IMG/VR virus record: IMGVR_UViG_3300009158_000219
Span: 1 to 22,562 of that record
DNA from: a virus
Direction: 5' to 3' (one strand)
DNA length: 22,562 nt
Shown piece after piece: positions 18,416 to 21,327 of the stretch. The stretch's first letter is position 1. Each line of letters starts with the position of its first letter. The notes below the pieces were generated by a model that was not told the origin of the DNA, did no database searches, and saw nothing but the letters and a program-made list of their open reading frames with translations. The position numbers and the translations under genes are program-made.

Positions 18416-18850
18416 ATGAAAGCAGTATTCAAGAACTCTTATCCAAGTAAAAACGGTAATGAAGTATTCGTATTCAGATTAGCTGGTAGCACAGAAGAGC
18501 TAGAGCAGTATGTGTCTGATAATCCACGTATGCCTGCTGATGATGATGGAACACCGTTGTTCTTTACAACATTTCCAACATTAAACTATGCTGATAAGGC
18601 AGGTGTGGATGTGTACCGTAGTTCAAAAGGTTCTTATTCTCTGGAGAATTCAGAGATCAGAAGAGCTCAGGCTTTGGCGAAAACTATGGGTGCGGAGACT
18701 GAGTTCAGAAGTGCAATGGTACAAAGTGTTATCGGTTCAGTATTTAAACTGAAAGCAAGTAACCCTTTTGCAGCTGTTACTGATGCTCCTGTAGCTCAAG
18801 TAGCTGAAGTTGCACCTTCTGACCTAGAAGCAGAAGTAGACGGTGAATAA
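18416..18850 (+). CDS. Hypothetical early-type protein
   Basis: 144 residues, not recognised. It begins MKAVFKNSYPSKNGNEVFVF (beta), then GSTEELEQYVSDNPRMPADD, a polar middle, and an acidic Ala/Val-rich tail (VAQVAEVAPSDLEAEVDGE). An acidic tail on a small basic-to-neutral core is common in phage single-stranded-DNA-binding proteins, but there is no other support for that. Its own motif and terminator make it a single-gene unit. Confidence 0.6.
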   Translation: MKAVFKNSYPSKNGNEVFVFRLAGSTEELEQYVSDNPRMPADDDGTPLFFTTFPTLNYADKAGVDVYRSSKGSYSLENSEIRRAQALAKTMGAETEFRSAMVQSVIGSVFKLKASNPFAAVTDAPVAQVAEVAPSDLEAEVDGE

Positions 18851-18921
18851 TAGTACCCGTGTAAAGATGTCCCATAACACAGGGGAGTGAGAAGTCTTGG
18901 AACTCAATGTGTGAAAGTATT

Positions 18922-18962
18922 GCAGCAGTAACGTAGGAAACTATGTTGCTGTTGCTTTTTTT
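18922..18962 (+). terminator. Intrinsic terminator with a 15-bp stem
   Basis: GCAGCAGTAACGTAG pairs with CTATGTTGCTGTTGC (18922-18936 and 18941-18955) over 15 positions with three G-U pairs and a GAAA tetraloop, then T7. The G-U pairs and T tract fix it to the plus strand. The 70 bases before it, after the gene, also look structured. Confidence 0.88.
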
Positions 18963-18974
18963 GTCCTGATACCC

Positions 18975-18999
18975 TTTTCTTTCTAACCCTTTGGTTAAA
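18975..18999 (+). promoter_or_regulatory. CTAACCCT motif, copy 4, before the non-coding region
   Basis: CCCTTTTCTTTCTAACCCT (octamer at 18983-18990) followed by TTGG and TTAAAC. No gene starts within 500 bases downstream; instead the structured non-coding region begins. If the motif is a promoter, this copy would drive that RNA and the alpha-CTD-like gene after it. Confidence 0.5.
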
Positions 19000-19014
19000 C
19001 AGGACTGTGTGCTG

Positions 19015-19495
19015 AATATATACACATACATAAGTGATGATAAGTCAAGACATATAATTATTATAGCCTTACTTATCTACTTATTCACACATAAACAAGA
19101 CTACAATTATTATGTTGTACAAGATATTATATACTCAGTCAGCATCAATAAGATTATACTTATACAATGATATAATGCTTGGTACAATACAGAGAGTTGT
19201 CTCCACCGTGTGGGCAAAGTAGACTCACATCCTGATAATCAGGTAGTTATATTTTAGGCATAATTAAAAATTGTGCGTGAAAAGGTGTGAGAAGATGATG
19301 GACAGAAAAACTATCACCTAATTAAACACTTTAAGTAAGTGAGTTAAATCACTGATACAGCTATACATACAATTAAATATATAGCTAAACAAGTATAAGT
19401 ACATTAATCTATCATACTATTAGTCTTAGTACTAGTATTATCTATAGTAATAGTATTAACAGTATTACTTATATTAGTACTATATCAAATAAGAG
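19015..19495 (+). ncRNA. Structured non-coding region A, candidate RNA or long leader
   Basis: About 480 bases with no gene. Helices seen: GATAAGT/ACTTATC near 19040-19080; a long hairpin 19115-19187 (TTGTAC, AAG and ATTATAT pairing with ATATAAT, CTT and GTACAA, 16 bp in all, with an inner ATAAG/CTTAT); GTCT-CCAC-CGT-GTGG and AGAC (19199-19224); a three-way junction closed by CTCACA/TGTGAG (19224-19229 and 19286-19291) holding CCTGA/TCAGG and GCATAATT/AATTGTGC; CACTT/AAGTG; and AGCTATA/TATAGCT (19359-19386). A U-G pair in the GCATAATT helix favours the plus strand. Random AT-rich DNA gives some hairpins, so the longer nested helices carry the argument. Confidence 0.5.
19428..19481. repeat. 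Nested inverted repeat
   Basis: Outer arms AGTACTA/TAGTACT (19428-19434 and 19475-19481) enclose inner arms AGTAATA/TATTACT (19446-19452 and 19463-19469). The surrounding sequence is almost only A, T and TAGTA-like words. It could extrude as a cruciform, be an operator or unwinding element, or be the end of RNA A. Confidence 0.6.
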
Positions 19496-19498
19496 TAT

Positions 19499-19516
19499 TA
19501 TAGTATCCGGTCTATT
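19499..19516 (+). repeat. Direct repeat, left copy
   Basis: TATAGTATCCGGTCTATT, 17 of 18 bases identical to the copy at 19752-19769. It lies 28 bases before the alpha-CTD-like gene. Confidence 0.75.
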
Positions 19517-19543
19517 TGCAAATTCAACTAAAAAATATAAACA

Positions 19544-19756
19544 ATGGAAGACTTAACAGTAAGAAGTAAAACAGTGCTTAGTATTCTAGGTATTGAAACA
19601 GTAGAACAATTAGTTAATACTGAGTTACCTGAAATAGGTACAGTCTTAAGAAGAGATTTCTTTGGAGTGTATTTAACCTACTCTAGAAAGGTAGATGAGG
19701 AATTAAGAAAACTTATTGATGATACTATAGATAGTGTAGCTAATGCTATACTATAG
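19544..19756 (+). CDS. Stand-alone RNA polymerase alpha C-terminal-domain-like protein
   Basis: 70 residues. EDLTVRSKTVLSILGIETVEQLV (2-24) follows the opening of bacterial alpha-CTD (LxLTVRSxNxLKxxGIxTVxxLV), and SRKVDEELRKLID (47-59) fits the closing helix (GKKSLxEIKxxL). This is a helix-hairpin-helix-like fold that binds DNA and transcription factors. Arg7 and Lys49 line up with E. coli Arg265 and Lys298, which contact UP-element DNA; Thr10 replaces Asn268. The loop between is longer and diverged. No other RNA polymerase part is present. It could redirect host RNA polymerase to phage promoters. It sits alone between two structured non-coding stretches and is flanked by an 18-bp direct repeat. 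The fold call is by eye. Confidence 0.6.
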   Translation: MEDLTVRSKTVLSILGIETVEQLVNTELPEIGTVLRRDFFGVYLTYSRKVDEELRKLIDDTIDSVANAIL

Positions 19757-19769
19757 TATCCGGTTTATT
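19752..19769 (+). repeat. Direct repeat, right copy
   Basis: TATAGTATCCGGTTTATT, containing the TAG stop codon of the alpha-CTD-like gene. The overlapping ATACTATAGTAT (19748-19759) is a perfect 12-bp palindrome. Confidence 0.75.
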
Positions 19770-20560
19770 ATTACTAATCAGTTACCTGAACTAATGATGG
19801 TAACAGATATATATTATGTATCACAATTCAAGCAATGTATCAGCCAATTCATTGCAGTACTTATAGTACTTAACGGCTAACACTTTATACTAGTTCAAAG
19901 AGTGAAAAGAATACTAGTTATATGTCCAACATACGTCAAGACTTTAAATTGTAACGTGGTAAACGGTCTGCTTATACACCAGTCGCAAAACAATAGTGTA
20001 TTATTACTCTCATCCAAGCAGGATTATTTGACATGAGATCCATGTAACAGTTGACGCCTGTAGTCAACTATAAAATAGGCAGGTAAGGGTTGCAACCTTG
20101 TGAGAGTACGACTAAGGGATTTTAATGTAGCTTCTTTTATTCCCTTAAACTGTTTAACCAACAGTTAATCAAAGAAAAAACTAGGTTAGGTGATATTACT
20201 GTGGTAGTAATAGTGTACTAACTGATGTTTCTAAGCTACAAATAACAGCTTACATAGTGCTTATTACAAACTATGTTAAATTGAAAGTAATAAAACTAAC
20301 TTTCTGCTTCAACCTGCATAACGGTCAAAAGGGGTAATCAAGCCCTTTAGTAATGTACCATTCCTGATTCCCAAGGTCAGGCAGTTGTAATAACTACAAA
20401 ACTTTATAGAGTATAAGCGGGTAGACAAATCTATGCTACGCAATTAGCTACCACCTAAACTGCAGTATATTGCAAGATGCAGGTAATGGATACTGAGGTA
20501 AGCTCTCGGTGATTTGTCCTATAAAGATGTTATTATAACTGAGTACAGAGGGGTTATTAA
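19770..20560 (+). ncRNA. Structured non-coding region B, candidate large phage RNA (about 790 nt)
   Basis: No gene is credible here, yet the region is dense in helices. Strongest is a four-way junction closed by TACTCTCA/TGAGAGTA (20005-20012 and 20101-20108) holding ACATG/CATGT, AGTTGAC/GTCAACT (20049-20069) and AAGG/CCTT. The 7-base loop of AGTTGAC contains GCCT, which can pair with AGGC at 20077-20080 as a pseudoknot. A second four-way junction is closed by GACAAATC/GATTTGTC (20424-20431 and 20511-20518) and holds GCTA/TAGC, CTGCA/TGCAG and ACTGAG/CTCGGT. Others: GCAATG/CATTGC with AGCC-GGCT, TAAGGGA/TCCCTTA, AACTGTT/AACAGTT, TATTACT/AGTAATA, TAAGCT/AGCTTA, GAAAGT/ACTTTC, AAAGGG/CCCTTT and CCTGA/TCAGG. 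U-G pairs favour the plus strand. Size and style recall ornate large phage RNAs such as GOLLD and ROOL; homology to these was not tested. Confidence 0.6.
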
Positions 20561-20598
20561 CTGAAAAATATAAACTGAAAATTAAATACTGAAAAGAA

Positions 20599-21327
20599 AT
20601 GAAAATACATTTACACTCAAGACAAGGACTATATGAAGTAGAAAGATTTGGTAGAAATAGTATCACGCTATCTACAAAACATAGTTCATTCTCTGTACCT
20701 ACAAGTGATTTTAAATCATTTGCGGGTGGTCTATGGAATAATCAGGTAAGTAAAAATACCATGGATGAATTTTTAGCTGTTGTTAGACCTGATGAATATA
20801 AAACTCAGGTAGAGCAAGAAGATCAAATCTTGACATTAGCTGCTAGATTAGATTTAATACAAAGTGGTGTTAAATCTGAACTAGAAGAGACTACTAAGAA
20901 AGCTGTTGAAGACAGAGATAGTTTAAATGATAAACTTAGAAGCATTGCTCGTGAAGTTTATAAGCAAAGACTTGATGTGTCACGCATTAAAATCAACAGT
21001 AATGGTATTAAATTTATAATTCAACAGAATTATAAAGATAATACTTACAGATTCTGTTGGGATCCTTATCAATTTGTAGCAAATTATCATAGTAATATCA
21101 GTGATATTTATAGAGATGGTAATTGGGGTACTATGAATGGTGGTTGGATAAGAATCATTGATGGCACTGTTATATTATACTCTAAATCAGGTGATTATGG
21201 AGTATATGATGATAAGATTGCTATTCAAGCAGCTAGAGCTATCTTTCCTAATATGGATATTTATTCATATGCAGGTAGAGCTTGGGATAATGAGTTAACA
21301 GAAATGTTTGACGGTCTACCATTTTAA
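20599..21327 (+). CDS. Hypothetical protein, 242 residues
   Basis: Not recognised. The N-terminal part is beta-rich with Arg and Ser (MKIHLHSRQGLYEVERFGRN). About residues 75-125 form a charged helix with coiled-coil character (GVKSELEETTKKAVEDRDSL). The C-terminal half is rich in Tyr, Trp, Asp and Gly (YRFCWDPYQFVANYHSN, then RDGNWGTMNGGWIRIIDG) and ends acidic. No signal peptide or membrane segment. It follows RNA region B, with a leader of repeated AACTGAAAA, and ends at a terminator. Confidence 0.65.
   Translation: MKIHLHSRQGLYEVERFGRNSITLSTKHSSFSVPTSDFKSFAGGLWNNQVSKNTMDEFLAVVRPDEYKTQVEQEDQILTLAARLDLIQSGVKSELEETTKKAVEDRDSLNDKLRSIAREVYKQRLDVSRIKINSNGIKFIIQQNYKDNTYRFCWDPYQFVANYHSNISDIYRDGNWGTMNGGWIRIIDGTVILYSKSGDYGVYDDKIAIQAARAIFPNMDIYSYAGRAWDNELTEMFDGLPF

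Follow-up and report, generated by a model that had tools for sequence, protein, structure and literature searches.

The region at 19770-20560 (+ strand) of the window, by which we mean the whole stretch of DNA analysed (a 22,562-nt, or 22.6-kb, virus record), appears from comparison of its relatives to be a chain of separate RNA modules and not a single 790-base molecule. Two of these modules, B and C, are best read as two new RNA families, each with a near-invariant scaffold made by its own 5’ and 3’ ends. These scaffolds enclose interiors that are exchanged as cassettes, and the modules are found together at a single locus. Our best overall explanation is that several separate structured RNAs, with fixed scaffolds and cassette heads, make up an early RNA locus of crAss-like phages; taken whole, we give it an even chance of being right, and its structural part we hold to be nearly certain. 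What is new is the RNA families, as phage structured RNAs with a variable arm are already known as a broad kind.

We gathered relatives of the region by searching IMG/VR with the flanking genes. One contig (3300027733_000523) is identical to the window over 18850-20700, and alignment to the other relatives gave short, very highly conserved blocks between unrelated sequence, the blocks being the paired ends of the modules. The original prediction had described a gene-free stretch holding one large RNA with two four-way junctions, each closed by an 8-bp helix. We found no credible gene in the region, and both perfect helices are present (20005-20012/20101-20108 and 20424-20431/20511-20518). Coding potential in the modules was likewise rejected: through-open frames were near shuffled levels in both B and C, and stops close three of the six reading frames of C. 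The folding energy of the whole stretch did not differ significantly from that of shuffled sequence on the + strand (z -1.06; 3 of 20 shuffles as stable), with z -2.16 on the - strand and, for the separate domains, -2.34 for the first junction and -1.62 for the second. Since the + strand fold was no more stable than shuffles, energy was uninformative and we relied on comparison.

Table 1. Features of the RNA locus and its flanks, in window coordinates.
Feature	Position	Strand	Description
Element F	19198..19219	+	TTGTCTCCACCGTGTGGGCAAAG...; conserved non-coding, 16 distinct sequences in related loci
70-aa ORF	19544..19756	+	just 5’ of RNA modules; no family; 64-100% identity in relatives
Module A	19772..19921	+	conserved; covarying pairs in several hairpins
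A first hairpin	19781-19786 with 19799-19804	+	conserved loop TGAACxAATGAT
A further hairpins	19832-19837 with 19850-19855 and others	+	covarying pairs
Module B	20005..20109	+	comparative alignment, covariation; the first predicted junction
B P1	20005-20012 with 20101-20108	+	8 bp
B P2	20014-20015 with 20021-20022	+	loop AAGCA
B exchangeable interior	about 20023-20083	+	
B P4	20084-20088 with 20096-20100	+	loop GTTGCAA, 20089-20095; stacked directly on P1
Spacer before C	20306..20347	+	further conserved hairpin AAGGGGTAATCAAGCCCTT; 86% identical in L023-L026
Module C	20354..20553	+	comparative alignment, covariation
C P1	20354-20358 with 20543-20547	+	
C P2	20363-20367 with 20377-20381	+	loop TTCCCAAGG, 20368-20376
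C P3 base	20382-20391 with 20532-20541	+	
C pseudoknot	CCC 20370-20372 with GGG 20550-20552	+	hairpin loop to 3’ tail
Second predicted junction	20424..20518	+	part of C exchangeable interior
242-aa gene	20599..21327	+	next downstream; no family

The structure of module C is secured by covariation. Its 5’ end reads AATGCACCATTC..TTCCCAAGG..CAGTTGTAAT and its 3’ end ATTACAACTGAGTGCAGAGGG. In a core alignment of 51 sequences (A1), from which the interior was removed and in which P1, P2, P3 and the loop/tail pseudoknot were scored, 98.1% of cells were paired and both sides had changed at 12 of 23 pairs. Double-change cells numbered 146, against 35.8 ± 7.1 expected from 500 shuffles, and controls with a slid register were 28-48% paired. 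When variants were tallied over at least 135 canonical copies, P1 occurred as TGCAC/GTGCA, TGTAC/GTACA, TGCGT/ACGCA, TGCAT/ATGCA, TGTAT/ATACA and TGTGT/ACACA, P2 took more than a dozen fully complementary sequence versions, and the CCC/GGG pseudoknot was compensated to CAC/GTG twice. A pseudoknot of a hairpin loop with the 3’ tail closes the junction that makes up the scaffold of C. We also retrieved contigs by changed 3’ ends (CAACTGAAYRCAGAGGG) as a held-out test, and obtained 14 new loci with a recognisable loop. Nine of these were canonical, and every one of the nine had the P1 partner that was predicted as well as a fully paired P2; among the P2 helices were some absent from the alignment, for instance CCAGT/ACTGG and CCTAG/CTAGG. 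The remaining five belonged to a second 5’ type of C. About a dozen copies of this other form, which begins TTAATCA..TCTCCCAAGG and has no canonical P1, were set apart (it occurs in L057, L063, L125, L165, L219, L245, L246 and L263).

Covariation in module B is weaker than in C but real. The 5’ end of B is TTACTCTCATCCAAGCAGG (or ..CCAATTGCAGG) and the 3’ end CAAGGRTTGCAACCTTGTGAGAGTAC. P1 (8 bp) and P4 (5 bp with a 7-nt loop) were together 97.8% paired, and over at least 112 copies every pair except the first was at least 98% paired. Double-change cells numbered 9, against 1.4 ± 1.0 in shuffles; the covariation rests on few changes because the sequence of B hardly varies. The loops of P2 and P4 change together: the common form combines AATTGCA with GTTGCAA, two phages with different interiors have AATTGTA with ATTACAG, and three copies have AATA with ATTAGAA, so that loop-loop pairing between L2 and L4 is possible. 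In both modules wobble pairs exceed A-C mismatches (14:3 in B, 19:7 in C), which identifies the + strand as the RNA sense strand.

The layout of B resembles that of tRNA and of tRNA-like domains such as the one in tmRNA. An acceptor-like helix bears, on its 3’ strand, a stacked T-arm-like hairpin (5 bp, 7-nt loop); a second, short hairpin is D-arm-like, and the loops co-vary in an elbow-like arrangement. Its scaffold is a closing helix plus the T-arm-like hairpin, with probable contact between the loops. It differs from tRNA in that RTTGCAA is not the T-loop consensus TTCRANY, there is no CCA, and a variable insert replaces the anticodon arm; searches of B with ARAGORN and the Rfam tRNA model gave no match.

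Comparison shows that, of the two 8-bp helices in the original prediction, only the first is a conserved closing helix, that of B; the second falls within the variable insert of the larger module C. The junction it closes, proposed as a domain of its own, belongs to this exchangeable insert and is readable in near-identical relatives alone. The original prediction also lacked module A and three conserved parts of C, namely its hairpin, its pseudoknot and its 3’ tail. It was right about structured RNA of an unlisted kind, since relatives show covariation (strong in C, weaker in B) and neither B nor C matches any of the 4,227 Rfam families; unit, borders and kinship were wrong. Permissive thresholds gave Rfam matches around the modules at chance scores only.

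By pattern scans we collected at least 114 distinct B and at least 147 distinct C modules. Among the matches listed, interiors measured 24-158 nt in B and 17-187 nt in C, and 260 of them fell into 160 unrelated families, none shared between B and C. Interiors within one family look structured, and some show compensatory changes. Several pairs of phages record their exchange. L104 and L109 share their B-C spacer and are 94.6% identical in the downstream DNA, but their B interiors are unrelated and their C modules differ in hairpin and interior; L096 and L116 differ in the B interior; and in L014 and L015 a replaced block of B and E lies between flanks that are 99.7% (upstream) and 100% (downstream) identical. 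Such clean replacements between near-identical flanks show that heads and modules are traded as units. Single modules are also missing (C from L003, B from L005, A from L019 and L020), duplicated (L014) or set apart, with ORFs or over 1 kb in between (L043, L066, L092). Because modules are lost, doubled and separated independently, B and C are not domains of one fixed RNA, and the single large molecule with two four-way junctions finds no support.

B and C occur in more than 100 IMG/VR contigs, and records of 80-128 kb mostly carry one B and one C in a single place. In G001 (123 kb, 34% GC), the one genome in which we read through the gene layout, the locus is situated close to the beginning of a + strand block made up of replication genes and small ORFs, and away from the structural gene block; we call it early on the basis of this position. 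The G001 terminase matches those of crAss-like phages (cr55_1, cr1_1) and Flavobacterium phages. A homologous terminase was present in 31 of 32 records, with at least 60% identity in 21 and about 26-35% in ten, and in those ten the RNA cores are nearly identical all the same. Near letter-identity of the cores across such distant terminases, together with the trading of interiors, points to an important early function in crAss-like phages, a group that is very abundant and mostly uncultured. Among 50,697 records of annotated phages we found neither B nor C; a B match there amounted to 26 bases in terminase genes and was put down to chance. The exact B pattern matched once in 84,980 prokaryote genomes, which we also judged to be chance, as the match falls within a coding sequence and nothing else of the module accompanies it.

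The neighbours of B and C are RNA-like as well. Module A opens with TACTAATCAGTATCC..GAACAAATGATAGGAACAGATT, and its first stem varies in a compensatory manner (GTTACC/GGTAAC, ATCC/GGA, ATCTC/GAGA). Element F opens the same RNA-rich locus upstream of the modules; a consensus fold for it was looked for in related loci and not found. Element E (CAATAGAAAGGCAGTGA..TCTGCGTATACCTGAGCATGTAGACAAACTGCTC) lies between B and C in other phages (L008:3515-3570, L015:6800-6860 and others) and has covarying stems GCAG/CTGC and GACG/CGTC. Element D (ACCACAAGGTTTCAGGCATAACCTCTCATCCTG...CAGGGGTTGACTTGTGGT; L014:6469-6550 and 17 other sequences) forms a closed helix, mostly directly 5’ of B. The order in other phages is F - A - (hatchet region) - D - B - E - C, and a hatchet ribozyme region can replace the part of A that lies 3’ of its first hairpin. 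Hatchet ribozymes adjoin A upstream of B and C in relatives at 78-83 bits (cut-off 51), in L005:2917-3054, L007:2751-2909, L096, L099, L101, L116 and L147, and in L215 two C modules follow, at a distance of about 0.5 kb, a pistol ribozyme in the same locus (L215:13780-13840, - strand, 56 bits). By the Rfam models the window itself contains neither ribozyme. In 2015 hatchets were reported from metagenome sequence only and in no completely sequenced genome (PMC4604424); hatchet and pistol ribozymes can now be placed in identifiable crAss-like phage genomes.

As to function, we suspect that B and C are transcribed early and that the transcript is processed into separate small RNAs, in relatives perhaps by the neighbouring hatchet and pistol ribozymes. 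The released RNAs would act in trans, the fixed scaffold docking on a conserved host or phage partner and the exchanged head giving a host-specific or escape function, as in arms-race RNA. This trans-acting mechanism of head and scaffold is tentative, and we give it rather less than an even chance. Ribozymes and riboswitches also have variable peripheral arms, so an arms race cannot be deduced from variability by itself. It is possible, if somewhat unlikely, that the locus is an RNA ‘display’ system, in which fixed pseudoknotted or tRNA-like scaffolds would present a large repertoire of unrelated heads, swapped by recombination, that early in infection target host factors, or escape them, as these change.

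B and/or C might instead be self-cleaving ribozymes of a kind not yet described, or punctuation elements processed by RNases, at which the early transcript is cut into pieces, with the interior serving as a peripheral arm like P4 of the HDV ribozyme. Hatchet (RF02678) and pistol (RF02679) ribozymes do share the early locus of related phages, and the compact pseudoknotted core of C with its variable arm looks like a small ribozyme. We nevertheless find this explanation unlikely: B and C fit neither of those covariance models and match no Rfam ribozyme at E up to 1-10, P1 and P4 of B and the P3 base of C are nearly invariant beyond what a ribozyme core needs, and interiors are replaced outright between near-identical phages.

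The position of C fits a cis role too, which is a counterpoint to action in trans. Among the matches listed, C is frequently followed by a small ORF with no other element in between: for 56 of 129 copies, an ORF of 50 aa or more begins no further than 100 nt downstream. B and C could accordingly be cis elements of early mRNAs, either exonuclease-blocking knots or shapers of the 5’ UTR of the next gene. The pseudoknot of C, in which a hairpin loop pairs with a tail 3’ of the closing helix, recalls the topology of viral exonuclease-resistant RNAs; C shows no homology to them, comes from a bacterial phage, uses another hairpin in the pseudoknot and bears a large exchangeable arm. Furthermore, the 76 ORFs found after C fall into 44 unrelated families, the 242-aa gene belonging to one of them, which argues against gene-specific regulation: a riboswitch or gene-specific 5’ UTR would be followed by one constant family. 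B is mostly far from the next gene (median 276 nt among the matches listed), and a block to decay needs no hypervariable exchanged interiors. We regard a cis role as distinctly unlikely.

A single large ornate RNA of the GOLLD (RF01998) or ROOL (RF03087) kind, with all 790 bases as one molecule with variable domains, is very improbable. The order F-A-B-C is mostly kept, and the locus is phage-encoded, structured and single-copy, combines a conserved core with a variable part, and in several relatives has tRNA genes within a few kb, much as GOLLD and ROOL do (PMC12286853). It differs in consisting of separate 60-250-nt modules rather than one continuous RNA of 600-800 nt, in the independent loss, duplication and separation of these modules described above, and in the swapping of interiors as cassettes. 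The kinship originally suggested also fails at the level of sequence models: neither covariance model matched within 18800-20700 at the gathering score or at E up to 10, nor did either match in relatives. GOLLD and ROOL form homo-oligomeric RNA cages, and B might form kissing dimers through its loop TTGCAA, which is self-complementary.

We see little prospect that C mimics a host RNA, for example the repeat:anti-repeat duplex of type II CRISPR systems, and so works as an RNA anti-CRISPR. The GTTGT...ACAAC ends usual in such repeats may have a counterpart in the invariant CAGTTGTAAT/ATTACAACTG of C, and paired bases that do not vary point to sequence-specific recognition. Phages are known to encode repeat-mimicking RNA anti-CRISPRs (Racrs; PMC10651486). 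Like C, these are small intergenic RNAs with sequence-conserved paired bases; they are solitary CRISPR repeats, whereas C is a larger element with several helices and a pseudoknot. Chance hairpins in AT-rich DNA, or inverted repeats that act as DNA (an origin, for example, or recombination sites), would agree with the shuffled-like folding energy of the whole region and with module ends that are inverted repeats, but compensatory changes, the pseudoknot, wobble asymmetry and the held-out test require RNA, leaving this explanation a negligible chance overall and already refuting it for C.

Several further features surround the modules. A second gene-free stretch of nearly 700 bases (18851-19543), which holds element F, lies upstream, with a strong terminator-like hairpin at 18922-18955 and a repeated block at 18972-18999 (...TTTCTAACCCTTTGG...) that is also found upstream of neighbouring genes in relatives. 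The sequence TATAGTATCCGGT(C/T)TATT flanks the 70-aa ORF at 19500-19520 and 19749-19769, as if marking an inserted unit. In L005 (2800-3370), past A and the hatchet ribozyme, a long conserved stretch ending CCTGTGTACCTAGCACAGGCAAGTCCTCA is probably another RNA.
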